A stretch of 64,000 bases of DNA from Desulfoferula mesophila. Lineage in GTDB: Bacteria; Desulfobacterota; Desulfarculia; Desulfarculales; Desulfarculaceae. Under the pieces are notes generated by a model that was not told the origin of the DNA, did no database searches, and worked only from the letters and a program-made list of their open reading frames with translations. Location: positions 573,501 through 637,500 of the forward strand of contig NZ_AP028679.1 in the NCBI RefSeq assembly GCF_037076455.1. The letters run 5' to 3'. This document shows, piece after piece, positions 5,887-18,362 of this stretch. Within the stretch, counting starts at the first letter, position 1; every line of letters begins with the position of its first letter. The position numbers were made by a program, and so were the translations under genes.

Positions 5887-6711
5887 CTACATCTTGCGCA
5901 ACTCCACTCGGCGGTTCAGGGCCTGGCCCGCCGCGGTGGCGTTGTCGGCCACCGGCTTTTGCTCACCCCAGCCCTTGGCCTGCAAACGCGAAGCGGCGAC
6001 TCCCTTGGCGGTAAGGGCCGCGACCACCGCCTGGGCCCGCGCCTCGGACAGCTTCTGGTTGGCCTGGGGGCTGCCCACGTTGTCGGTGTAGCCTTCCACC
6101 GACACCTTTAACTCTGGGTGTTGCTTGAGCATCCCCGCCACCTGGTCGATCAGGGGGTAGGACTCCGGCTTGATGATCGCCTTGGCCGTGTCGAAGTGCA
6201 CGTCGATGACCATGAAACCCTTTTGGCTCAACTGATCGAATATGGCCTTGGAGCTGATGGACTGCTTCATGGCCTTTTTTTCTACGATGATCAGGGTATA
6301 ACGGCCCTGGATCGAGTCGACCTTGGCCCATATCTCCTGGCCGTCCTTGATCAGGCGCAGCGTGGTGATGTGGTTGTTGTCGTCATAGAGCACCTCGCCG
6401 CCGATCTGGGTGATCGCCGCTTGGTGGTTGCGCACGATTTCCAGGGCGCTGGCCCGGGGCTGGCCCTTTTTGGTCTGATACTCGATGAGGAAGAACTTTC
6501 CCTCCACCCGCTCTTTGCCCCGGTTGGGCAGGGTGAAGGTGTAGGCGTCAAAATTGACCTGGCGATACCCCATGATGTAGGTGTCAGGCATGCGGGTGAA
6601 CAACGGATGGTCCTTGCTGCCCTTGCGGTCGGTTTCGGCCCCCACCAGACCGGGCCATAGCAGCAGCATCAACAACAGGAAACCGAAGAAGCGCACAGCC
6701 ATTTTTGACAT
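5887..6711 (-). CDS. OmpA-family protein with C-terminal peptidoglycan-binding domain
   Basis: The product (274 residues) has a signal peptide (residues 1 to about 24) and a middle domain with repeated strand-like segments (DTYIMGYRQVNFDAYTF, VLYDDNNHITTLRL). The last 120 residues form an OmpA-like domain: VHFDTAKAIIKPES, VSVEGYTDNVGS, QKLSEARAQAVV and NRRVELRK. These are the diaminopimelate-binding elements that hold such proteins to peptidoglycan. The middle region resembles OmpA-family proteins with a DUF4892-type part, not confirmed. The frame opens further upstream, but the ATG at 6711 has GAGGGG four bases before it and starts the signal sequence. Confidence 0.85.
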   Translation of the reverse strand: MSKMAVRFFGFLLLMLLLWPGLVGAETDRKGSKDHPLFTRMPDTYIMGYRQVNFDAYTFTLPNRGKERVEGKFFLIEYQTKKGQPRASALEIVRNHQAAITQIGGEVLYDDNNHITTLRLIKDGQEIWAKVDSIQGRYTLIIVEKKAMKQSISSKAIFDQLSQKGFMVIDVHFDTAKAIIKPESYPLIDQVAGMLKQHPELKVSVEGYTDNVGSPQANQKLSEARAQAVVAALTAKGVAASRLQAKGWGEQKPVADNATAAGQALNRRVELRKM

Positions 6712-6996
6712 GGTACCCCTCAATTCACCGGTTTTTATATGCGCGGACCGTTTGATCGCCGCGGGCGCTGCCTGGCGTAAGCCTGCCACCTCGCGGCCCT
6801 CGAGCGGCGAGGACGGCAGAGTATGGATGTTTTTTCCGTCGGCGTCTAGAGGGAATATGGCATGCCGATGACCCATGAATAGCGGTCCCGCCGTTGGGAA
6901 ATACGCCGGGGAGCGCCGTCTAGCGGGGCAGGGTTGATCCAACCGGGTCAAGTGATCGCCGAAAAGGCCTTGGGCGTATTGCGCCTGGGAATGCGG

Positions 6997-7851
6997 CTAA
7001 AAATCGAGCCCGTGGGGATAGGTGTCTCGTGGCCGGAACCCCAACAATCTTTTGGCCGGTTTCATGTCGTAAATCTCGGGCTCCTGCTTGCTGAAGGCGT
7101 AGACCACGTCAAAGGGCGTGGGCCGGGCATACAGGCTGCACCGAAATAATTCCCTTAAATCGTCGTGGCTTAAAAACAGCGGCCTGCCTTCGGCCGAGGT
7201 GGCCATGTTTTCGAACTCCGCCGGCGAGTTGACCGCCCAACCCAGGCGCACAGCCAGGACGGACAAGCCGTAGCGGCGGGAATACAGTTGGCCCATTTCC
7301 TCCCCCCACAGCTTGGTGAGGCCATAGTGGCCTAGGGGGGAGCGGTCATTGACCCTGACGCGTTTTTGTTTTTCATGCAAAAAGGCCGCCTGGCAACTGC
7401 TCGCCAGGATGATTCGCTTCACGCCAGCCAGCCGGGCGGCTTCCAGGATGTTGTGAAGCCCCAAGACGTTGGATGGCACCAATTGGCTCTCAAAATCGGC
7501 GAAATGGGGGGAAGCGGCCAAATGAATTATGCAATCGGCCCCTTGGGCCGCGTGGCTGAGCGTGGTGAAATCCAGCAGGTCCCCTTGAATGAATTCCTCC
7601 GGGCCGGCCGCCGGTTCGCGGTCATAGCCTCTCAGGCTGAAACCGCATTGGCTCAGATAAGGGGTTATGGTCCTGCCAATGAAGCCACTGGATCCGGTGA
7701 CAAGGATTTTGGCAAAGGGAACAACGGAGCTTTGGGCAAAATGACGCTGGTGGCGAAATCTATAATAGCTTTCCAACATTTCCCGGGATAACAGTGGCTT
7801 GATAAAATTTTTTATGTGCCTGATTATATCTTCCACTTGATGGTCTCCCAT
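6997..7851 (-). CDS. NAD-dependent epimerase/dehydratase (extended SDR)
   Basis: The product shows the Rossmann glycine motif TGSSGFIG about 40 residues in, an acidic residue after strand 2 (YDRE), the IHLAA segment, the catalytic Ser cluster ILASSCQAAF, and YGLTK as the YxxxK pair. Most such enzymes act on nucleotide sugars; the substrate here is not predictable. The chosen ATG at 7851 follows AGGA; a longer form starts at 7884. The C-terminus, with LGFRPRDTYPHG, is typical of the family. It stands at the edge of the glycan/peptide-modification locus and is divergent from the nucleotidyltransferase gene. Confidence 0.85.
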   Translation of the reverse strand: MGDHQVEDIIRHIKNFIKPLLSREMLESYYRFRHQRHFAQSSVVPFAKILVTGSSGFIGRTITPYLSQCGFSLRGYDREPAAGPEEFIQGDLLDFTTLSHAAQGADCIIHLAASPHFADFESQLVPSNVLGLHNILEAARLAGVKRIILASSCQAAFLHEKQKRVRVNDRSPLGHYGLTKLWGEEMGQLYSRRYGLSVLAVRLGWAVNSPAEFENMATSAEGRPLFLSHDDLRELFRCSLYARPTPFDVVYAFSKQEPEIYDMKPAKRLLGFRPRDTYPHGLDF

Positions 7852-8137
7852 GGCGAAAATTGTCCTGCCCTCCCTCAACCGCATTGGTTGGGAGCAACAA
7901 TCATAAGGACGTCAACTTCTTTGCATCTGGCTTGGTAAGATGATAGCGCCGTAAAGATTTGTTGATAAGGGATTTTCTACGCGGCAACCAGTTGGGGCCT
8001 ACGGGCATGACCGCGGGTTTTGGCCTGCCGCGCCTTCAGGTCCGCGACAACTCGAAAGAGCTTTGGCCCAAAAAATGGTACATTGGACGGCAACGGAAGA
8101 TTGAACGCACACCAAAAGCCAACGAGGCCGGAATCAC

Positions 8138-9286
8138 TTGACGCCAACCGATGATCTGCTGTCCCTTTGCCGCGCCTGGTTGCATAACGGCGAGGCCCCC
8201 GTAGCCCGGATTCAAGACTGGGCCGCCTTGCGCGGCCTGGCCGCCCCCCACCGGCTGCATCCCCTGATCTATCGCCAACTCGCGGTCCAGGCCGAGGAGG
8301 TGCCCGCGATCGAGTTGGCTTGGTGGGCCCAAAAGGCCCGCATGATCACCCTGGACAATCTCAAAAGAACCGCTGAGCTGGTGCGGGTGGTGCTGCTCAT
8401 GCGGGAGCGGGGCCTCGAGCCGGTGCCGGTAAAGGGCCCTTGCCTGTCCCTGGAGCTATACCGCGACGTCTCCTTTAGGGAGTTCAGCGATCTCGACCTG
8501 TTGATTCCCCAGGACCAGGCGTTGCCGGCCCTCGCCTGTCTGCACGAGGCGGGTTATGTGATCGACGACGGGACGGATCATCCGCCTGAGGCCCAGCAAT
8601 GGCCCGCTTACCTCACGGGGCAACGCGGCGAAATTCCCCTGGTCAACCGGGACAACCTGATCCAGGTCGACCTCCACTGGCGCATGCTGTCGTTGATCGC
8701 CGGAGGCGACGACGACTGGTCCCTCCGGCTCAGCCCGGAGCCTCTCCAATTGGCCGGGCATGCAATCCCCCGGCTCGCCACCGACTACCTCCTGGTCTAC
8801 CTGGCCCTGCATGGTTTCAAGCACGGCTGGAATCGCCTGGCCTGGCTGGTGGATCTGGCAATGCTGCTTGTCCGGGCCCCGGACTGGGATCTGGCCGCCC
8901 TGCGCGGCTCTTTCTTGGGTGACACCCAGAACATGCTGATTTTCCTGTCATGTCTGTGCCTGGTCGAGTCTCTTTTGGGAGTGCCGCTCAACCCGGGGCT
9001 GCAAGAGGATGCCCTCTGCCGAGAGTTGATGCCCAAGGCGCGGGAGTTGGCCCAGGCCGTGGGCCAGGGCATCTACGAAAGCCGGGGGCGCGAACCCGGC
9101 CAGGCCAGCCTGCTGAAATATCAACTCATGGCCTGCCCCAACCTGGGGGCCAAGGCGCAATGCCTGATGAGGCTGGCCAACGCCGTGGGATTCGAGGAGG
9201 TGCGCACCCTGGGCTTGCCCAAGGGGCTGCGCCTATTGTATTACCCCTATCGCTGGTGCCGCCTGATCGCCAAGCCGTTGCGATAA
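8138..9286 (+). CDS. PF14907-type nucleotidyltransferase-family protein
   Basis: The 382-residue product matches the uncharacterised nucleotidyltransferase family: after an N-terminal helical part comes VPVKGPCLSLELYRDVS and, near residues 115-122, EFSDLDLLIP, where the DLD acidic pair is the expected metal site. Later segments (QVDLHWRM; a helical part with HGFKHGWNRLAWLVDL) are typical. Members occur in RiPP clusters such as paeninodin-type lasso peptides and in glycan loci, usually beside HprK-like and PqqD-like genes as here. Translation begins at TTG, with GAGG ten bases upstream; no ATG fits. Donor and acceptor are unknown. Confidence 0.8.
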   Translation: MTPTDDLLSLCRAWLHNGEAPVARIQDWAALRGLAAPHRLHPLIYRQLAVQAEEVPAIELAWWAQKARMITLDNLKRTAELVRVVLLMRERGLEPVPVKGPCLSLELYRDVSFREFSDLDLLIPQDQALPALACLHEAGYVIDDGTDHPPEAQQWPAYLTGQRGEIPLVNRDNLIQVDLHWRMLSLIAGGDDDWSLRLSPEPLQLAGHAIPRLATDYLLVYLALHGFKHGWNRLAWLVDLAMLLVRAPDWDLAALRGSFLGDTQNMLIFLSCLCLVESLLGVPLNPGLQEDALCRELMPKARELAQAVGQGIYESRGREPGQASLLKYQLMACPNLGAKAQCLMRLANAVGFEEVRTLGLPKGLRLLYYPYRWCRLIAKPLR

Positions 9287-9340
9287 GCGCTCGGCCCGGC
9301 GTATTGGGGCCCGGCATCACCTCCTCCGCGGATATTGGCC

Positions 9341-10219
9341 ATGCATGGAGCCATCCTAGTAGGCACATACCATAAAACCGGTACCGTGTGGCTGCTCTGC
9401 GTGTTCAGGGAGTTGGCCCGCAAGCTTTCGGTTCCGTTTTATGATGTCTCCAGCGATTTCATGCCCTCCGAGGAGCAATTGGCGCAAGCGCTCCGTAAGA
9501 TCGGGGCGGAGCGGATTCCCTGCATTGTTTTCGACGGCCATTGCCGCTTCGTTCCCGGGTCCATCGACGCCGGATGGTTCAAGGGGATCAGGATGATCCG
9601 CGACCCCCGGGACGTGGTGGTCTCCAGCGCCAGATATCACGCTTGGTCACGGGAAGAATGGCTCCACCGGCCCAAGGACTCTTTCGGGGGCTTGTCTTAC
9701 CAGCAACAGCTGAATTCCTATCGGGAGCTGGATGACAAGCTCTTGTTCGAGATGAGGCATTCAGCCAAACACACCATCTTGCAGATGCTCAATTTCCGGG
9801 GGGGCGGGGTGTTCGCCACCGTGAGGTACGAGGATCTGATCACCGACTACCGCCTGGAGTTGTGGCACCGGGTGCTGGCCCATCTCGGGCTGAGCGGAGA
9901 CCTGGTGCCCTTGGCGGACCAGGCCTTTCTGGACAACACCATCTTCGGCAACCAGGGTTTGCTCGAGCAAGAGCACGTGCAAAACGGCAAGCCCCGGCAG
10001 TACGAGAAGGTTTTCAGCCAGGCGGTGGCCAAGCGGTTCGCCCAAAGGTTTCCCGGCGTGGCCGCCGACCTGGGCTATCCGGCGCAAGAGGAGCCCTTGA
10101 GCCTGGCGGCGCGTTACTACAAGTATGCCAACCGCCACTACTACGACCTGAGCAGGCTGAAGGCTCTCGGGTGGAAGCTGCTGAAAAAGGCGAACCATTG
10201 CACTCGGCCCCGCTATTGA
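9341..10219 (+). CDS. Sulfotransferase-domain protein
   Basis: The 292-residue product contains the PAPS-binding signatures of the PF00685 superfamily: the 5'-phosphosulfate loop GTYHKTGTVWL right at the N-terminus, and the 3'-phosphate motif RMIRDPRDVVVSSARYHAW about residues 85-103. The late segment around GKPRQYEKVFSQ fits the second PAPS contact. It should transfer sulfate from PAPS to a hydroxyl or amine of a glycan, lipid or peptide. The ATG at 9341 has no strong ribosome site; an in-frame TTG two codons earlier is possible. It converges with the HprK-like gene. Confidence 0.85.
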   Translation: MHGAILVGTYHKTGTVWLLCVFRELARKLSVPFYDVSSDFMPSEEQLAQALRKIGAERIPCIVFDGHCRFVPGSIDAGWFKGIRMIRDPRDVVVSSARYHAWSREEWLHRPKDSFGGLSYQQQLNSYRELDDKLLFEMRHSAKHTILQMLNFRGGGVFATVRYEDLITDYRLELWHRVLAHLGLSGDLVPLADQAFLDNTIFGNQGLLEQEHVQNGKPRQYEKVFSQAVAKRFAQRFPGVAADLGYPAQEEPLSLAARYYKYANRHYYDLSRLKALGWKLLKKANHCTRPRY

Positions 10220-10246
10220 GCCGCCCGCTTCGTCCGGCACGCCCGG

Positions 10247-11368
10247 TTAAGAACTATTGGCTATAAAGCGCCGGATCGTCTCGGCCACCCCGGCCAGGTC
10301 GCGGCCCAGCCGCAAGCTGTAACAAGGCACCCTTTGCACCAACTCGGCTATGTTGCGCAGGGACTGTCGGCCGGAACCCGGCAGTTGGAAAATGGTGCTG
10401 GGAGCCAGGGCGGCCAAACCGGCGGCTGGGCCGGCAGGCAAGATTTTGGTGTGCTCCTGGTCCATCACCACGGGGATCAGGATCGCCTTGAGGGGGCTCT
10501 GGGCAATGATTTGGCCATCGAAATCGCCGTGCAGGAAAAGCATGGCCTTTTCGCTGTCCAGGCGCTCGGCGTTGACCAGGTGGGGCGTCAACTGGGGGAA
10601 CCTGGCCAAGTCGGCGGGACCCTTGAGCTTGGCCGTATTGTATAGGCTGAACACCCGCGGTTCTTCGCGCGTGTCGATGAGGGTGTAGTCGTCCCCCAAA
10701 TACTGCAAGCCGGCGTTGAGGCAGGCCAGGCAGGTGGTGGATTTGCCGCTGCCCCCCTTGCCCACGATCAAAACGGACTTGCCGTCCACGCCCACCGCCC
10801 CGCCGTGGGCGAACTGATAGCCCTGGCTGGCGGTCCACCAACTCAGGATGCTGCGCATGGGAGAGCCGGTTTCGTGCCAGGGAACCTCGGCGGCGTCGTT
10901 GGCCCAATAGATGGCGCGCCGGTTTTTCACGTCTAGCAGACTGAAAATGTTGGGCCCGGGATGGAACGCGGCCATGAAGTCGTCTTCCAGCAGGCCTTTC
11001 AACTCGCCGCGCGAGTTCAGGTAGTAGTACCAATGCCAGCTGAAGGTGCGCATCAGGCCTTCCAGGGCCACCATGGGCCGGCTGGTGAGCGACTTCAAGT
11101 CCCAGGCCATGATGGTCAATTCCGGCTGGTCCACCGGCGCCACGGCCAGATGTTCCAAGGCCGGGGTGATGAGCGGCTGCAAGGCGTCCCCGGCGAAACA
11201 CAGCTTGAGCTGGTCCCGGCCGATGGCATAGTGGTGCTCCACCACGCCACGTTCCTCCCGCAGGGCCTCAAAGCCCGCCAGCGCCAGGGCGAACAGCGCG
11301 TCGAATTCGTTTTTGGATGAAGCCGCCACCGGATCAGCTAGTTGGCGTCCGAGCCCTTGTTGGGCCAT
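10247..11368 (-). CDS. HprK-related kinase-like ATP-binding protein
   Basis: The C-terminal half carries a P-loop like that of HPr kinase: HGGAVGVDGKSVLIVGKGGSGKST near residues 190-208 has Walker A GKGGSGKST, followed by YLGDDYTLID, where the paired Asp is the catalytic/metal motif. The first 180 residues are unlike HPrK and may bind the substrate. Relatives in lasso clusters phosphorylate the precursor peptide; others belong to HPr-related systems with a PqqD partner. The gene overlaps the end of the PqqD-like gene by 31 bp, so the two are surely co-expressed. A GTG at 11326 is an alternative start. Confidence 0.75.
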   Translation of the reverse strand: MAQQGLGRQLADPVAASSKNEFDALFALALAGFEALREERGVVEHHYAIGRDQLKLCFAGDALQPLITPALEHLAVAPVDQPELTIMAWDLKSLTSRPMVALEGLMRTFSWHWYYYLNSRGELKGLLEDDFMAAFHPGPNIFSLLDVKNRRAIYWANDAAEVPWHETGSPMRSILSWWTASQGYQFAHGGAVGVDGKSVLIVGKGGSGKSTTCLACLNAGLQYLGDDYTLIDTREEPRVFSLYNTAKLKGPADLARFPQLTPHLVNAERLDSEKAMLFLHGDFDGQIIAQSPLKAILIPVVMDQEHTKILPAGPAAGLAALAPSTIFQLPGSGRQSLRNIAELVQRVPCYSLRLGRDLAGVAETIRRFIANSS

Positions 11369-11775
11369 CCGGTGTCATCGACTTCGTGCACCGGATCGAT
11401 CAACAACAACTCTTGCATGTCGCTGTAGGTCTCTATGGTCGGGGGAGCATAGGCGCTTTCCAGGGACTGGGTGTCCAACGCGAGGCCCGCCGCGTCCTGC
11501 CCCGCCTGGCCGTCCTCTATCAGCTCCTCCATGCGCAACCTGGCTATGAAATCGCCAACGTCTTTTTTAAGCTCTTCCACGGACCGGCCATAATGCTCGG
11601 CGAGACATTGGGTTATCCGCTCTTCGCCGGCGCCCGTTTCGATTAGCTTCCAGATGGCGGTGCCCACGCCCCGTAGGCTGTAATAATTGCCGGTGGCCAG
11701 ATGCACGATCACGGTCTCACCGGCGATAGTTTCCGAATGAACGTCGAATCCTTTGATCTGCAAGCTCATAGACAT
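11338..11775 (-). CDS. PqqD-like peptide-binding protein with leader-like C-terminal tail
   Basis: Residues 1 to about 88 form a PqqD/RRE-like domain: TVIVHLATGNYYSLRGVGTAIW, then helices with a LIE..A motif and the VEELKKDVGDFIARL helix. RREs bind RiPP leader peptides. Residues 89-145 are extra: a linker, Y109-x-x-P112-x-I114, then YSDMQELLLIDPVHEVDD and GWP near the end. Y-x-x-P-x-L is the recognition motif of lasso-peptide leaders, so this tail could be a fused leader or core, or an intramolecular regulator. The ATG at 11775 has AAAGGA upstream. It overlaps the HprK-like gene. Substrate peptide not found nearby. Confidence 0.75.
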   Translation of the reverse strand: MSMSLQIKGFDVHSETIAGETVIVHLATGNYYSLRGVGTAIWKLIETGAGEERITQCLAEHYGRSVEELKKDVGDFIARLRMEELIEDGQAGQDAAGLALDTQSLESAYAPPTIETYSDMQELLLIDPVHEVDDTGWPNKGSDAN

Positions 11776-12137
11776 GGGGCATCCTTTTGAAACGTTGTCC
11801 AACTGCGTTGCATGGCCCGGCGTCGCTGCCGGGCGGAGCATGGCAACAATCCAGTGTCCACGCCCTCCAATCCGTCAAACGGTTGGGCGGCTCGGAGGCT
11901 GATTGGGCAGGCAGATTATCCGCTACGCGGCGAGACGCCAGCTATGCCTCTAAATCGGCCTTGTCGGAAAACAACGGGCCTAAAGGAGGCGGACCAGTAG
12001 CCATAATCACTATCAGAATACTTTAGTCGCGCCGGGTTATCCAGAAAAACCGATAGGCTTGTGTAGTGAGGAGCGCCATAAATTGCAGGCTTGGGTGGAG
12101 CGCCTTGGCGGTCGGGGATTTTTGCCGCGGGCGGAAC
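11776..12137. other. Intergenic region upstream of the PqqD-like gene
   Basis: No gene with supporting features. I looked on both strands for a short precursor-like frame. The only candidate is a 20-codon minus-strand frame, MATGPPPLGPLFSDKADLEA, near 11940-12002. It has no ribosome site and is not convincing. A promoter for the PqqD/HprK pair should lie here, but no clear -35/-10 pair stands out. Confidence 0.4.
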
Positions 12138-13310
12138 TCAACCGGCGAGGCAATCGTCCAATTTGGCCAGGATGATGCGCCAGTCGTAGCGCTGCTCCAC
12201 CAACTCGCGCCCGCCGTGACGTAGGGCCTCCCGCCTGGGGCGGTCGTCCAGCAGCTCGAGCACCGCCCGGGCAAAGGCCTCCGGCTGATCCTCCACCAGC
12301 AAATGCCGCCCGTGGGCCACCTGTAACCCGGCGCAACCCAGGCTGGTGCTCACTACCGGCAGGCCCATGGCCATGGCGTGCAGGATTTTCAGACGGGTTC
12401 CGCCCCCCAGGCGCAAGGGCACGACGGTCAGGGCGCATTGTTCGGCCACGCGTTCCATGCTGGGCGGGTTGGAAACCACTTGGATGCCGGGGGCGCCGTG
12501 CAAGCGCCTGATCTCCGGCGTGGGGTCGCGGCCCGCGATGATTAACCGCACCCGGCTGTCGGCTTGATGGATAAGGGGCAGGATGCGCTCGGAAAAATAC
12601 AGGGCCGCGTCGACGTTGGGAAAGTAGCTCATCGAGCCCATGAACAGGATGTCGCGGGAGTTGGCTTGCTCGATCAGCGGGATGGATTCCACGGAGACGC
12701 CGTTTTCGATCACCACGGTTTTGCCGCGTTGGCAACGTTCGTCGATTACGGATTTATCCTCCCGGCTTACCGTTAAGCGCAGCGGAAATCTTGGCCAAAC
12801 CTTATCTTCATAGGCGGCCATATGCATCTTGGCCGCGTATAGTTTCCAGTCAACTATCTTTTGGGGTTTGCCTGTAATATCCGGTGGTGAAACCGCGGCT
12901 TGTCCCATGATTTCCGACTCGATATTGTGCTCGGCCAAAACGCTGGGGCCGGCATCGAAAAGCGGCTGATATTGCGAGGTGTATATGTGCTCGAACATTA
13001 TCGCGTCGTAGGTGTTTTTGGCCGCCCGCACCAAGGCCCTTTCCAGGGACCGGGAACAGTGGTGCAGAACCAGCACCGGCAGGTTGGCATTCTCGCCGGG
13101 GGGCGGCTGAAACACCGAACGTACAATTAGGTTAACTTCGCGGCAGTACTTTTGTATACTATCGGCATGCTCGGCTTCGGCGGGCTCGGACAAACAGACC
13201 AGGTCCAAATCGTGCCGTTGCCCCAGGTAGCGTATCTCCTCCCACATCCTTATTCTGCCGCCCGAATTGGGAGGATAAGGCAAATAGGGGGCTATCATTA
13301 ATATTTTCAT
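12138..13310 (-). CDS. Glycosyltransferase, GT4-like fold
   Basis: The 390-residue product opens with MKILMIAPYLPYPPNSGGR, the usual N-terminal strand and glycine-rich turn of GT-B enzymes that extend surface glycans. The donor-binding half has DILFMGSMSYFPNVDAALYF, VRLIIAGRDPTPEI and VVPLRLGGGTRLKILHAMAMGLPVVS, the latter being the nucleotide-sugar site. It resembles the sugar transferases seen in exopolysaccharide loci. The ATG faces the TPR-glycosyltransferase gene on the other strand only 24 bp away. Sugar and acceptor are not predictable. Confidence 0.85.
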   Translation of the reverse strand: MKILMIAPYLPYPPNSGGRIRMWEEIRYLGQRHDLDLVCLSEPAEAEHADSIQKYCREVNLIVRSVFQPPPGENANLPVLVLHHCSRSLERALVRAAKNTYDAIMFEHIYTSQYQPLFDAGPSVLAEHNIESEIMGQAAVSPPDITGKPQKIVDWKLYAAKMHMAAYEDKVWPRFPLRLTVSREDKSVIDERCQRGKTVVIENGVSVESIPLIEQANSRDILFMGSMSYFPNVDAALYFSERILPLIHQADSRVRLIIAGRDPTPEIRRLHGAPGIQVVSNPPSMERVAEQCALTVVPLRLGGGTRLKILHAMAMGLPVVSTSLGCAGLQVAHGRHLLVEDQPEAFARAVLELLDDRPRREALRHGGRELVEQRYDWRIILAKLDDCLAG

Positions 13311-13334
13311 TTAACGGTCTTGGATGTCTAGCGC

Positions 13335-14729
13335 ATGACGGAGCACAGCAAACGGCCGGACACAATTGAGCACTTATATCACCTCGGCAACATATGGCGT
13401 CTGAAGGGAAACATCGCTAACGCGGAGTTGAATTACCAACAGATACTAGCACAGGACCCCACCTTTGTTAAGGCGTATGAAAGGCTGGGTTTGCTGATGC
13501 TGGTAAGCGGCCAGGTAAAAAAAGCTCGGGAATATTATGCCCGAGCCCTGGAGTTGGACCCTCAGGATTTTATCGTAAGCAAATATCTCGAATATGTCGA
13601 CAGCCTGTTGCAATCGAGCCAAGCCAACTCGCAAATGCCCACGGTCACCGGCGGCCGGGAAGACTCACCCAGCAACCCCGCGGGCAAGATATGCCTGGAT
13701 CAGCGCATTTCCTGGTCCCATCACCGTAGCGGCTGGGGGCCGGCCGTCAAGGCGCTCAGCCCTTTGCACAATGCCAAAGGGGTGATGTTGGACACGGCCA
13801 TCGAGGCCAATTTCGGTCACAGCCAATGGAAGGATTGGGTGAATCCGCCAGAGGTGCTGGAGCAGATGAAAAAGGACGGCACCTTCCAGGCCCTGGCCAC
13901 CTCCGAGGAAAAGGGCCTGGTGCCCTACACCGAGCCGTGGGTCGGTTTCATCCACGATCCCCATGAAATGCCCGAGTGGTATGAATATCAATTGGCTCCC
14001 CAGAGTATTTTCAAAAAGCCGGTTTGGCGAAAAAGCCTGGACCACTGCCGGGGGCTGTTCACCCTTTCGAGCCATCTGAAAGGCTGGGTCCAACAACAGA
14101 CCGGCAAACCGGTCTCCAGCCTGTTGCACCCCACCGAGACGCCCGAGGTCCGCTTCGATTTCGGGCGCTTCATGGACAACCGGCAAAAGCTGGTGGTGCA
14201 GATCGGCAACTGGCTGCGCAGCCACGTGGCCATCCGGCGCCTGCCGCTAATAAAGGGCAATCCCCTGGGCTACGGGAAAGCCTTCCTGGAGCCGTCGCCC
14301 GGTTTTCTGGCCGCCATCGAGGAAATAGTGCGGCGGGAAAAGGCGCATTATGGCGTGGAGATCGAACCGGAGTACGCGGCCAACACCCAGGCCCTGCGGC
14401 CCCTGCCCAATGCCGAATACGACGAGCTGCTGGCACAAAACCTGGTGTTTCTCTATCTGTTCGATAGCGCGGCCAACAACACCATAGTAGAGTGCATAGC
14501 CCGGGCCACGCCCCTGCTGGTAAACCCCTTGCCGGCGGTGCGGGAGTATCTGGGGGACGCTTATCCGCTGTACTACGACACCCTGGAAGAGGCGGCCCAA
14601 AAGGCGCTCGACCTGGAGCTCGTAAAAAAGGCGCACGACTATCTGGCGCACAGCGGGGTGCAAGACAAGATCACCTGGGATTACTTCCTGGACAGCTTTA
14701 AAAACAGCGCGGTATACAGGTCGTTATAG
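13335..14729 (+). CDS. TPR protein with C-terminal glycosyltransferase-like domain
   Basis: The 464-residue product starts with about 95 residues of TPR-type helices (HLYHLGNIWRLKGNIANAELNYQQIL; AYERLGLLMLVSGQVKKAREYYARALELDP). A linker leads to a GT-B-like domain whose end, FDSAANNTIVECIARATPLLVNPLPAVREYLG, resembles the donor site of group 1 glycosyltransferases. The segment WVGFIHDPHEMPEWYEY suggests an acceptor-side pocket. TPR-glycosyltransferase fusions often modify proteins. The start codon is fixed by the TPR beginning at once. Likely first gene of a plus-strand set with the GT2 and ABC genes. Confidence 0.7.
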   Translation: MTEHSKRPDTIEHLYHLGNIWRLKGNIANAELNYQQILAQDPTFVKAYERLGLLMLVSGQVKKAREYYARALELDPQDFIVSKYLEYVDSLLQSSQANSQMPTVTGGREDSPSNPAGKICLDQRISWSHHRSGWGPAVKALSPLHNAKGVMLDTAIEANFGHSQWKDWVNPPEVLEQMKKDGTFQALATSEEKGLVPYTEPWVGFIHDPHEMPEWYEYQLAPQSIFKKPVWRKSLDHCRGLFTLSSHLKGWVQQQTGKPVSSLLHPTETPEVRFDFGRFMDNRQKLVVQIGNWLRSHVAIRRLPLIKGNPLGYGKAFLEPSPGFLAAIEEIVRREKAHYGVEIEPEYAANTQALRPLPNAEYDELLAQNLVFLYLFDSAANNTIVECIARATPLLVNPLPAVREYLGDAYPLYYDTLEEAAQKALDLELVKKAHDYLAHSGVQDKITWDYFLDSFKNSAVYRSL

Positions 14730-14731
14730 CC

Positions 14732-15448
14732 ATGCCTTCCCTAGCTCCTCTCCATGACACCAGCGTGATCATCCCCGCCTACAACGCCGGGAAATACCTG
14801 GCCGAGGCCATCGAGAGCGTTCTGGCGCAACAGCCACCGCCCCGGGAGATCATCGTGGTGAACGACGGCTCCACCGACGACACCGCCGCGGTGGCCCGGG
14901 GTTTCGAGCAAGTGACCTGCCTCCAGCAGGCCAATCAGGGCATCGCCGGGGCTCGCAACACGGGCATCGGAGCGGCCTCGGGGGAATTCCTGGCCTTTTT
15001 GGACGCCGACGACCTCTGGACCTCCGGCAAGCTGCAAGCCCAGTTCGCGGTGCTGGAGCAAAGGCCGGAGGTGGACATGGTCTTCGGCCTGGCGGAGCAG
15101 TTCTACAGCCCGGAGATGAGCCAGGTGCCGCAGGAGCCGCCGCCCATACAAAAAGGCATGGTGGCCGGCACCTGCCTGATCCGGCGCGCATCCTTCGAAA
15201 AGGTGGGGCTTTTCGACACCAGCTACGACGTGGGCGAGTTCATCGACTGGTACGCCAGGGCCCAGGAGCTGGGCTTGGTCAGCCACCTGGTGCCCCGGGT
15301 GCTTTTGCGGCGCCGCCTGCATACCACCAACACCGGCATCTTGCAGGGCGGCAAGCGCGCCGACTACGCGCGCCTGTTGAAGGCCGCCCTGGACCGCCGC
15401 CGGGCCCAAGCCGGCGGGCCGGCAACCTCCGACCCGGAAAAGGCTTAG
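14732..15448 (+). CDS. GT2-family glycosyltransferase
   Basis: The 238-residue product is a compact GT-A enzyme: VIIPAYNAGKYLAEAIESVL at the start, REIIVVNDGSTDDT for the nucleotide pocket, NQGIAGARNTGI, and FLAFLDADDLW containing the DxD metal motif. After the catalytic core come GTCLIRRASFEKVGLFDTSY and a short tail, with no membrane segment. It begins two bases after the TPR-glycosyltransferase gene and ends 13 bp before the ABC exporter, so the three are probably one unit. The sugar is unknown. Confidence 0.9.
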   Translation: MPSLAPLHDTSVIIPAYNAGKYLAEAIESVLAQQPPPREIIVVNDGSTDDTAAVARGFEQVTCLQQANQGIAGARNTGIGAASGEFLAFLDADDLWTSGKLQAQFAVLEQRPEVDMVFGLAEQFYSPEMSQVPQEPPPIQKGMVAGTCLIRRASFEKVGLFDTSYDVGEFIDWYARAQELGLVSHLVPRVLLRRRLHTTNTGILQGGKRADYARLLKAALDRRRAQAGGPATSDPEKA

Positions 15449-15461
15449 GGCCCGAAACACC

Positions 15462-17276
15462 ATGAACCAACCCGAAGCACAACCCGAGACGCGCAGCATC
15501 AAGAGCGCGGTGCTCTGGGCCCTGCGCCGCACCCGGGGCATCGACAAAAGGCTGCTCCTGCTGGTGCTGACCACCGGCCTGGTGCGCAGCCTCATCCCAC
15601 TGGGCCTGGCCCTGGCCGGGCGGGAGCTCATCAACGCCGTGGCCGCCGGTTCCCTGGAGCGGGCTTGGCCCTGGCTGGTGTTGAGCATGCTCCTGACCAT
15701 GGTCATGGCGTTAATGGTCTCGGTGTTCAATTTTTGCAGCCAATTGCTCAAGGACAAGCTGGACCTGGAGATCGTCTCCGACGTATTGCGCCGGGTGTCG
15801 CTCCTGGAGTTCGCCCTGCTGGAAAACAGGCAGTTCCAGGATGTGCTGCACCAGGTCCGCCAGAGCGCCGGGCTGCATTTTTCCATCTTCATCAACAACA
15901 CCATCCGGGTGGCCAGCAACGCCTTGATCGCCCTGGGCTTCGTGGTCATCATCACGGCCATCGCCCCGGTCTTTTTCCTGGTGGCGCTGCCGGTGGCCGT
16001 GGCCTACCTGTTGTTCAACCTGGTCCTGGCCCGCCGGGGATATCAGGAGGAAAAGGCCAACGTCTCCAAGTGGCGCTGGTCCCACTACTACGTGCGCATG
16101 CTGACCGAAGCCTCCTCCGCCTCGGAGATCAGGCTCCTGTCCCTGGGCCGCCTGTGCATCGATCGCTTCCGCGAGCTGGTGCTGGACATCATTGGGCGGC
16201 GCAAAGCGGTCTTGCGCCTCCAGTTGATCGGCGAGTTGGGGTTCACAGCCATCTTGGTAGCCGTGGTGTACTACTTCTTGTGGGACGTGGTGCAATACGC
16301 CCTGAAGGGCCGCCTCACCATCGGAGACCTGGTTATCTTCGCCGGGGCCGTGACCCAGGTGCGCACGCTGATGCAGGCCTCCATGAGCGGCGTGGGCGAA
16401 ATGCGCAAGAGCCTCTTCCATATTTCCGCCCTCATGTCCCTGTACGACTACGATCTGAAGCAGGAACCGGACGGCGGCCAGGTTCCGGAGCGCCGCACCG
16501 GGCGCATCGAGGTGCAGGGGGTGAGCTTCACCTATCCCGGCGGGGAGCGCCCGGCCCTCTGCGATATCAGCCTGAGCGTAGAACCGGGAGAGACCCTGGC
16601 CCTGGTGGGCGAGAACGGTACGGGCAAGTCCACCCTGGTCAAGCTGCTGGGCCGCTTGTACTCACCGGACCAGGGGCGCATCCTGGTGGACGGCCTGGAC
16701 CTGCGGCTTTGGCGAAGGGACGCGCTGCATCAACGCTTCTCCTTCGCCTTGCAATATTTCGGCCGCTACGAGGCCAGCGCCGCTGAGAACATCGCCTTTG
16801 GCAACTGGCTGGAGCTGGGCGGCAACCCCGAGAGGATCGAGCGGGTGGCCCGGGAAACCGGCATCCACGACATGCTCACCAGCCTGCCCAACGGCTACGA
16901 CACCAAGCTGGGTTGGCTGTTCGGCGAATACTCCCTGTCCGGCGGCCAGTGGCAGCAGATAGCCCTGGCCCGGGCCTTTTGCCGCCAGGACGCCATCCTG
17001 GTCTTGGACGAGCCCACCGCCCACCTCGACGCCATGACCGAATACCATATCTTCCAGCGCTTCAGCGAGATGGCCCGCAATCAGACCACCATCTTGATCT
17101 CCCACCGCTTCACCACGGTCAGCATGGCCGACCGGATCGCGGTTATGGAGCAGGGACGCATCGTGGAGCTGGGCGGCCACCGGGAGTTGCTGGCCCTGGG
17201 CGGGCGCTACGCCCGGATGTACAACCTGCAGGCGTCCCGGTTCATGCAGGACCCCCAGCCTGGGACCCCGGCCTAG
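15462..17276 (+). CDS. ABC exporter, fused membrane and ATPase domains
   Basis: The 604-residue product has an N-terminal exporter domain of about six transmembrane helices (residues about 25-320) and a C-terminal ATPase: Walker A GENGTGKST near 385, LSGGQWQQIALARAF near 492, Walker B ILVLDEPTAHLD near 512, and a switch His in ISHRF. No peptidase C39 domain is present, so any leader removal would need another protein. Lasso and other RiPP clusters carry a similar half-transporter. It runs directly into the next gene (stop and ATG adjacent). Substrate unknown; genes around it suggest a modified peptide or glycolipid. Confidence 0.9.
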   Translation: MNQPEAQPETRSIKSAVLWALRRTRGIDKRLLLLVLTTGLVRSLIPLGLALAGRELINAVAAGSLERAWPWLVLSMLLTMVMALMVSVFNFCSQLLKDKLDLEIVSDVLRRVSLLEFALLENRQFQDVLHQVRQSAGLHFSIFINNTIRVASNALIALGFVVIITAIAPVFFLVALPVAVAYLLFNLVLARRGYQEEKANVSKWRWSHYYVRMLTEASSASEIRLLSLGRLCIDRFRELVLDIIGRRKAVLRLQLIGELGFTAILVAVVYYFLWDVVQYALKGRLTIGDLVIFAGAVTQVRTLMQASMSGVGEMRKSLFHISALMSLYDYDLKQEPDGGQVPERRTGRIEVQGVSFTYPGGERPALCDISLSVEPGETLALVGENGTGKSTLVKLLGRLYSPDQGRILVDGLDLRLWRRDALHQRFSFALQYFGRYEASAAENIAFGNWLELGGNPERIERVARETGIHDMLTSLPNGYDTKLGWLFGEYSLSGGQWQQIALARAFCRQDAILVLDEPTAHLDAMTEYHIFQRFSEMARNQTTILISHRFTTVSMADRIAVMEQGRIVELGGHRELLALGGRYARMYNLQASRFMQDPQPGTPA

Positions 17277-18362
17277 ATGCACGGGCGGGGCGCTTCGCCG
17301 GCGGCGCGGTTGGGGCTCAGCCCCACCCAGGCGCTGCTGCTCCAGGCCTCGCTCCTGACCGGCGACCCGGCCTTGCGGGCCTGGCAAGGCTGGCGCGAGG
17401 CGGCCGACATCGAGGTGCTGGAGCCCGGCGCCTATGCGCTGATGCCCAGCCTGTACCAGAACCTGACCCGCCTGGGGGTGGACGACCCTCTGGTATCCAT
17501 ACTCAAGGGGGTTTACAAGAGGACCTGGCTGGTCAACCAGATGGCCTGCAAACGGCTGGGGCAAATCGTGCAGGCCTTCGCCGCCAAGGGCGTGACCGCG
17601 CTGCCCCTGGGCGGCCTGGCTGCGCTGCTGACGGCCTACCAAGACCCGGGCCTGCGCCCCCTGAACCGCATGGTCTTGGCCGTGCGGCCTTCCCAACTGC
17701 GGGCCGCCGCCCAGGCGGCGCAAGAGCTGGGCTGGCAGCCTCTGAACCAGATCCCCGCAAATTTGCGCTACGGCGGTTCGCTGCAGTTCAAGATGCGCCA
17801 AGACCCGGGCCTGGAGTTGCGGTGGCGCTTACTGCCCCATGTTTTTCAGGAAGAGCCGTGCCGGCCGTTGTGGCAAGACGCGCTGCCCCTGGATTTCCAG
17901 GGAATGCGTCTAACGGTCATGCAGCACGGCGACGCCTTGTTCCTGGCCCTGGCGGACGGTGGCTGGCGCCGGGACGGGGAGCCGCTGGCCTGGCTGGCCG
18001 ATGCCTTCCACATGCTCCGTCAAGGCTCCATCGACTGGGAACGGGTGCTGGCCCGGGCCCGGGCCCTCCATTCGGCCAACGCCCTGCGGCCGCCCCTGGA
18101 GGGCCTTTGCGATCTTCTGGCGGCTCCGGTGCCCGGCGCGCTCTCGCGGCGGCTGGCTGCCTTGTCTTCGCGGCCATTGGACAAGATTTACTACCAGGCC
18201 TACGGCGCCCCGGCCGCGGCCCATGGCGACGAGCGCGGTTTCCGGGAGGTTTTTCTGGGCAAGGTCCGTTTGCACCAGAACCGCCCGCTGTGGTTCGTCT
18301 TGCTGACCGCGCTGCGCCAATACGCGCGGAACCTGTGGGCGGGGGCCAAGCGGGGGCGCTGA
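17277..18362 (+). CDS. Nucleotidyltransferase-like protein lacking the acidic motif
   Basis: The 361-residue product follows the PF14907 layout: helical N-terminus, then a segment LPLGGLAALLTAYQDPGLRP near residues 107-126, a region rich in Trp and Arg (LELRWRLLPHVF), and a C-terminal helical domain. Where catalytic members read DIDLLV or DLDLLI, this one reads NRMVLAV, so the metal-binding Asp pair is gone. It may be a non-catalytic partner of the intact copy at 8138-9286, or a divergent family. Its ATG follows the ABC stop codon immediately, implying translational coupling. Confidence 0.6.
   Translation: MHGRGASPAARLGLSPTQALLLQASLLTGDPALRAWQGWREAADIEVLEPGAYALMPSLYQNLTRLGVDDPLVSILKGVYKRTWLVNQMACKRLGQIVQAFAAKGVTALPLGGLAALLTAYQDPGLRPLNRMVLAVRPSQLRAAAQAAQELGWQPLNQIPANLRYGGSLQFKMRQDPGLELRWRLLPHVFQEEPCRPLWQDALPLDFQGMRLTVMQHGDALFLALADGGWRRDGEPLAWLADAFHMLRQGSIDWERVLARARALHSANALRPPLEGLCDLLAAPVPGALSRRLAALSSRPLDKIYYQAYGAPAAAHGDERGFREVFLGKVRLHQNRPLWFVLLTALRQYARNLWAGAKRGR

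Follow-up and report, generated by a model that had tools for sequence, protein, structure and literature searches.

A conserved leader-like tail fused to lasso-B1-type RRE domains and a recurrent gene module around it in several bacterial phyla

Architecture of the RRE protein

The window, that is, the whole 64,000-nucleotide stretch of DNA that was analysed, encodes on its minus strand a 145-residue RRE protein extended by a C-terminal tail. The stop of its gene overlaps the start of an ORF for an HprK-like kinase on the same strand, by as much as 31 bp if translation of the latter starts at its first ATG. The protein and its parts are listed below.

11338..11775, minus strand: RRE protein with fused tail, 145 aa (ORF; PF05402 on residues 20-86, E 7e-16)
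11509..11763, minus strand: RRE domain of the lasso-B1 type, residues 5-89 (PDB profile matches; predicted-fold match)
11560..11562, minus strand: codon of D72, the counterpart of LppB D70 (alignment with PDB relatives; covariation)
11452..11508, minus strand: unconserved linker, residues 90-108 (alignment; pLDDT mostly <50 there in the model of the L003 homologue)
11425..11451, minus strand: putative built-in leader motif Y109-x-x-P112-x-I114-x-x-Y117 (kept in about 49 homologues; predicted strand)
11362..11424, minus strand: distal segment S118-DMQELLLIDPVHEVDDTGWP138 (near-invariant in type-A tails; short helix, then disorder in both models)

The tail elements read in the earlier note, Y109-x-x-P112-x-I114, D119-M120-Q121, D127-P128-V-H130-E-V and G136-W137-P138, are all present at these positions. 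Its label "PqqD-like" stands as far as the Pfam PqqD family covers the domain, but the closest relatives are lasso-B1 RREs. In a profile search of the RRE against the PDB the best matches were TbiB1 (5v1u, E 7e-17) and PbaB1 (9x90, 2e-15), followed by TfuB1 and LppB (9x8z, 3e-6), with PqqD (3g2b) reaching only 0.1. The predicted fold matches 5v1u_A with a Z-score of 12.1 and an rmsd of 1.5 A over 84 residues. Judged by predicted fold and sequence, the window protein is an RRE, and it is well supported that its domain folds as the lasso B1 type, the kind that binds YxxPx[LIV] leaders. A PqqD of PQQ biosynthesis was rejected, the TIGR03859 score of 21 bits being below the equivalog cut-off of 46. 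In scans of the window protein no NCBIfam or Pfam model spans the tail; the tail gave nothing meaningful against the PDB (a tektin match is weak) and no match in PHROGs.

Conservation and taxonomic distribution of the tail

Searches with a tail profile recover fused tails from other genomes, with E-values down to 1e-21. The collection comprises about 49 distinct tailed proteins, from the phylum of the window and from records labelled Nitrospirota, Chloroflexota and Cyanobacteriota; the recurrence of the same fused tail in other genomes confirms that it is not a chance extension. The homologue alignment yields the tail consensus [FY]xxPx[LI]xKYxDMQDLLLLDPIHEVDxxGWP. Conservation across the tailed proteins comprises the motif [FYW]xxPx[LIVF] and the segment DMxxLLxxDPIHxVxxxGWP, and the linker before the tail varies in both sequence and length. 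The earlier note had proposed looking for the tail in other PqqD-like proteins and their neighbours, and had expected its idea to fail if homologues with the same domain and neighbours carried an unconserved tail; the search produced the opposite, a conserved tail and recurring neighbours.

A profile restricted to the tail, run on 395 genomes from the phylum of the window, matched 7, its own genome included and one weak match representing a type-B tail (see below), and always behind an RRE domain. A full-length profile was run on about 300 genomes from the phylum to which locus L003 belongs (record titled Nitrospiraceae) and on 400 from that of L004 (titled Chloroflexi). In both phyla its matches fell into two clear groups: tailed proteins, which score from about 96 bits upwards with alignments running beyond position 130, and ordinary RREs, for which the alignment mostly ends near position 100. 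Further classes searched added more tailed proteins. Six-frame searches detected no stand-alone tails, every clear match being fused to an RRE. The plasmid search revealed one tailed RRE, on pCRI9333.04 of the cyanobacterium Crinalium epipsammum PCC 9333 (WP_232229449.1), and none on any other plasmid; viral contigs and phages contained no relative of the tailed RRE. Seven genomes of the same genus as the window lack a tailed RRE, which fits patchy, horizontally moved modules.

The distal segments were classified into two types. Type A was defined partly by D127, P128 and H130, so the presence of these residues in 41/41 tails reflects the selection of the group. Beyond them, type-A tails have D at the D119 position (40 of 41), L or I at -3 and V or I at +5 (all 41), and GW (39 of 41). 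Type-B tails, with the pattern DPPxPGxxDxxW, occur in eight proteins that belong to a supported clade. They share the Y-motif and the DM segment with type A, always combine Tyr with Asp72, and keep the D and mostly the W, not the H, of the type-A distal segment. Type-B examples are L101 (RRE near 9540-9997), L102 (9400-9830), L135, L136, L137, L139, L145 and L146. One further tailed RRE (L143) ends at YEAPRLTKFGELEKLILSGE, is lasso-leader-like and has no DPIH segment; this may be an intermediate form.

Recurrent gene module around the tailed RREs

The following genes surround the RRE gene in the window.

8138..9286, plus strand: PF14907 nucleotidyltransferase 1 (E 2.5e-43; recurrent neighbour)
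9335..10219, plus strand: sulfotransferase, a local accessory (PF00685, E 1.1e-6)
10247..11368, minus strand: HprK-like P-loop kinase (HprK_rel_A 36.5 bits, cut-off 200; GGSGKST, DDY, K)
12138..13310, minus strand: family-4 glycosyltransferase (PF13692; also in L003, L020 and L091)
13335..14729, plus strand: TPR protein (Pfam; homologue in L025, the Crinalium plasmid cluster)
14732..15448, plus strand: family-2 glycosyltransferase (GT2), a type that accompanies most tailed RREs (PF00535, E 1.5e-33; recurrent)
15462..17276, plus strand: MsbA-like ABC exporter (PF00005 and MsbA-type NCBIfam matches)
17277..18362, plus strand: PF14907 nucleotidyltransferase 2 (E 4.7e-27)

The PF14907 nucleotidyltransferase, sulfotransferase and exporter that the first reading had placed near the RRE were all recovered by Pfam. 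As it had also stated, there is no lasso cyclase among the ten proteins around the window RRE in a Pfam scan, which equally detected no macrolactam synthetase or B2 peptidase among them. The HprK-like kinase proposed there is present as an ORF, and ten homologues keep its P-loop GGSGKST, its DDY and the His and Lys, but it scores under the curated cut-offs for HPr kinase/phosphorylase, an identity that was therefore rejected (PF07475 22.9 against 33.3 bits, TIGR00679 27.9 against 240, TIGR04352 36.5 against 200).

Recurrence was scored with profiles built on the window and on related loci: the HprK-like kinase, GT2 and PF14907 enzymes recur beside the tailed RRE, often with the family-4 glycosyltransferase and in some loci with the exporter or another ABC gene. 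The MsbA-like exporter has a close homologue in the Crinalium plasmid cluster and more distant ones elsewhere. The sulfotransferase, matched at no tailed locus except the window, was rejected as a module member. Kinase and GT2 are fused in one protein near a tailed RRE in three loci (L018:5025-6812, L022:156-1952, L089:8013-9830). Among 155 genomes of one class, counted on strong full-length matches to the HprK subfamily, 11 possess both the tail and the kinase, 1 the tail only, 1 the kinase only and 142 neither (Fisher 7e-15), and both exceptions come from incomplete genomes (72% complete for the tail-only and 67% for the kinase-only genome). In three loci (L093, L094, L098) a tail is present but HprK is not among the neighbours, and two (L090, L100) run into contig ends. 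By sequence similarity, the genes around the tailed RRE are assigned to a putative sugar- and phosphate-transferring module that recurs across several phyla.

On the Crinalium plasmid, predicted to be mobilizable, the module (5896-17248) comprises both nucleotidyltransferases, the kinase, glycosyltransferases, the TPR protein and the ABC exporter. Two clusters contain two different tailed RREs each, 11-15 kb apart (L096/L097 in genome G994, L098/L099 in G1001). G994 has HprK; G1001 has no HprK match beside the tailed RRE, and its nucleotidyltransferase and ABC gene lie about 120 bp apart.

Predicted docking of the tail on its own RRE

LppB holds the leader Tyr by a hydrogen bond from its D70 side chain (PMC13381572), and profile alignment places D72 of the window protein at this position. 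Across 45 tailed proteins, position 72 is occupied by D (12) or H (2) in all 14 with a Tyr tail and in 0 of the 31 with a Phe tail (Fisher 6e-12); untailed RREs in the same data almost always have D there. This is the strongest Tyr/Phe association among the 85 RRE columns, and it remains first-ranked both after thinning of similar sequences (7e-9, the next column 8e-4) and after removal of the type-B clade. In a tree built without column 72 both traits change five times and agree fully in the pairs tested; this phylogenetic control is weak, since five changes are too few and the branches are well supported for just one independent pair, which leaves a sign test without power.

The structure prediction of the tail together with the RRE, suggested in the earlier note, returned the leader part as an ordered strand and the distal segment as a short helix followed by disorder. 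AlphaFold predicts the strand at residues 113-117 in the window protein (block pLDDT 82) and at 117-121 in the L003 homologue (block pLDDT 91), where the linker and the DPIHEVDDTGWP end are disordered; in both models the DPIHEVDxxGWP that follows the leader strand is disordered. Both were built from the same three-sequence alignment and are thus not independent. In the PbaB1-PbaA crystal, residues E-9 to L-7 of PbaA pair with Y38-N40 of PbaB1 and extend its sheet (PMC13381572), and the predicted tail strand falls at the equivalent of E-9 to L-7. Secondary structure, model confidence and covariation together make it highly probable that the tail docks on its own kind of RRE, either in the same chain or in a partner chain. 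Of the proposal that the binding domain is fused to its own substrate, the fusion of the leader is upheld, with occupancy of the groove indicated by the covariation and the two predictions; the substrate role stays a candidate.

Possible roles of the distal segment

The module encodes the same enzymes as pathways that act on RRE-presented peptides, but here RRE and leader are one protein and an invariant segment comes after the leader. From this combination we propose a self-leadered RRE, whose tail would occupy its own groove and whose distal segment would be presented and modified, a reading to which we give an even chance. As its first and well-supported step, the RRE would fold as a lasso-type B1 domain. 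In the second, which is well supported but not proven, Y109xxPxI would lie in the groove of its own RRE, in the same or a partner chain, at the site that takes up a separate precursor in lasso and LPP systems, with Tyr in the D72-lined pocket and residues 113-117 as an extra strand of the RRE sheet. Such docking may then keep the invariant distal segment DMQELLLIDPVHEVDDTGWP next to the RRE and accessible to the products of the neighbouring genes, namely the HprK-like kinase, family-2 glycosyltransferases and the PF14907 nucleotidyltransferase. In the fourth step, for which the chances are close to even, the distal segment would be the acceptor, so that the RRE carries its own substrate; a sugar or sugar-phosphate would be transferred to one invariant non-hydroxyl residue, D127, H130 or W137, and the product would serve the surrounding polysaccharide/export locus. 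The retention of the tail across phyla, the unconserved linker, the lasso-RRE-type domain, the covariation, the strand predicted at the leader motif, the recurrence of the module and the near-exclusive pairing of tail and HprK subfamily speak for this reading. Against it, the substrate cores of most RiPPs vary, and the tail segment is invariant.

The balance between a distal segment that is modified and one that is only gripped is close to even. Modification is favoured by the enzyme families, the exposure of the segment and the exporter, and disfavoured by the lack of a conserved hydroxyl after DP, the lack of a peptidase and the loci without HprK. Type-A tails have no conserved Ser, Thr or Tyr after D127-P128; within 12 residues after DP, 9 of 41 are without S/T and 5 without any hydroxyl residue. 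Ser/Thr phosphorylation in the manner of LPP or paeninodin was hence rejected as the conserved function. Modification of the tail by the kinase, nucleotidyltransferase and sulfotransferase, as suggested in the earlier note, was not supported, given the absence of a conserved hydroxyl, the three loci with a tail and no HprK, and the local occurrence of the sulfotransferase. The S/T/D/E that precedes D119 fits a helix N-cap. If the tail is modified, D127, H130 or W137 would be the candidate acceptor residues in type A. From its likeness to GDPH or NPTH sites, the DP-H of the tail might be a site of autocleavage.

The same observations bear on a second explanation, in which the leader-mimic tail keeps the RRE permanently loaded and the distal segment, never itself modified, serves as a docking handle: through it the kinase, glycosyltransferase and nucleotidyltransferase would be recruited or activated, their target being a sugar or another protein. 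A segment that is strictly invariant from phylum to phylum and has no conserved hydroxyl suits a binding motif, no peptidase, variable core or separate precursor was found, and RRE occupancy can potentiate enzymes in RiPP pathways (PMC12710340). However, there is no universal partner, HprK, PF14907 and GT2 each being absent from at least one locus (contig ends explain some of these cases), and we found no natural system working that way. We regard this adaptor role as a tentative but serious candidate.

The tail could also act as a gate that blocks the RRE until it is displaced by a precursor encoded elsewhere, in an otherwise LPP- or lasso-like pathway. Its leader part does resemble separate lasso and LPP leaders, and the window genome has a second, untailed RRE beside a transglutaminase-like protein. 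Yet scanning the small ORFs of 17 loci for the motif turned up only scattered unrelated matches, none of them common to the tailed loci or convincing as a precursor, no lasso cyclase or LPP peptidase was seen in the module (a TIGR02228 search of 19 genomes or records gave no match close to a tailed RRE), and a gate would not need the invariant distal segment, all of which makes it improbable. Strongly disfavoured, and very improbable in our estimate, is an ordinary structural extension of a PqqD-like protein unrelated to leader binding: the low-confidence tail end in the models suits it, but the covariation of Tyr/Phe with position 72, the identity of the lasso-leader motif and the confinement of conservation to this motif and the distal segment do not.

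Comparison with known systems

In the paeninodin, pseudomycoidin and LPP pathways an RRE presents the precursor and an HprK-like kinase phosphorylates a Ser; in pseudomycoidin a nucleotidyltransferase-like enzyme adds hexoses, and LPP and many paeninodin clusters are located in polysaccharide loci (PMC9266682, PMC13381572). The LPP of Bacillota (Popov et al. 2026, PMC13381572) are similar to the tailed module in having an RRE for YxxP-type ligands, an HprK-like kinase, an NTP transferase and an MsbA-like transporter, and in their polysaccharide loci with glycosyltransferases. The LPP set of HprK-like kinase, NTP transferase and MsbA-like exporter is found together in the window and on the Crinalium plasmid, and most tailed loci have the kinase and nucleotidyltransferase, some also the exporter. 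In contrast to LPP, the tailed module has the leader fused to the RRE, no SpI-like peptidase nearby, no separate precursor found and no conserved phosphorylatable Ser, occurs in other phyla and includes HprK-GT2 fusions. As for a separate precursor like that of LPP, with its YxxPxVLxHQ leader, six-frame searches detected no stand-alone tail and the small-ORF motif scan of the tailed loci gave no shared candidate. Since the peptidase, the separate precursor and the conserved core Ser were all missing, we did not classify the tailed module as LPP.

The paeninodin and pseudomycoidin systems (PadeK; PsmK and PsmN; PMC9266682) likewise combine a discrete B1 RRE with an HprK-like kinase and a nucleotidyltransferase, enzymes that phosphorylate a peptide and add hexoses to it; the window differs in a tail without a C-terminal Ser and in a module where no lasso cyclase or B2 peptidase was seen. 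The discrete lasso RREs TbiB1, TfuB1 and PbaB1 share the fold, the groove residues and YxxPxL-type recognition, but they bind a separate precursor, and those with solved structures are without a tail. Borosin precursors are fused to the methyltransferase that modifies them. The window protein would resemble borosins in uniting modifier and substrate peptide in one chain, provided that the tail is a substrate, although its fused part is a recognition domain and not a catalytic one.

In the open literature we found no account of the tail, of an RRE-precursor fusion or of a PqqD/HprK/nucleotidyltransferase module, though a description elsewhere is possible; as far as we could find, a self-leadered RRE family is undescribed. 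In the sections of PMC12710340 covered here the tail is not described. This recent survey reports that PF05402-only proteins above the size of a discrete RRE and without other annotation make up 21% of PF05402 matches, a fraction that leaves room for such a family and likely includes tailed RREs, which consist of an RRE and an unannotated extension. The tailed subfamily may thus explain some of these long proteins. RiPP discovery by RREs assumes a separate precursor as the ligand, a rule that a widespread ligand fused in cis would break. Tailed RREs would also come with binder and leader already joined covalently, which suits them to measurements of RRE-leader recognition, and the joint role of HprK-like kinases, PF14907 enzymes and GT2 in polysaccharide loci, left open by the LPP authors, becomes testable. 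It is possible, though on balance unlikely, that the tailed proteins represent a RiPP-like class with recognition domain, leader and invariant core in one polypeptide, in which glycosyl or phosphoglycosyl transfer at a conserved Asp, His or Trp would turn the protein into a carrier of a primer or adaptor for surface polysaccharide, and this in several phyla.

Untailed RREs in genomes with a tailed RRE

The second RRE of the window's own genome (L002), untailed and 96 aa long, lies outside the window at about 1.105-1.108 Mb of contig 1, flanked by a radical SAM protein with a B12-binding-like region and by a Transglut_core3 (PF13471) protein; this locus is either lasso-B2-like or an unclassified RiPP locus. 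In genome G637, contig 9 (105471 and 108036) has an SpI-like peptidase match, the only one of the TIGR02228 search over the cut-off, about 2.3 kb from an untailed PqqD-type RRE and on another contig than the tailed RRE of this genome; the site is possibly an LPP-like locus.
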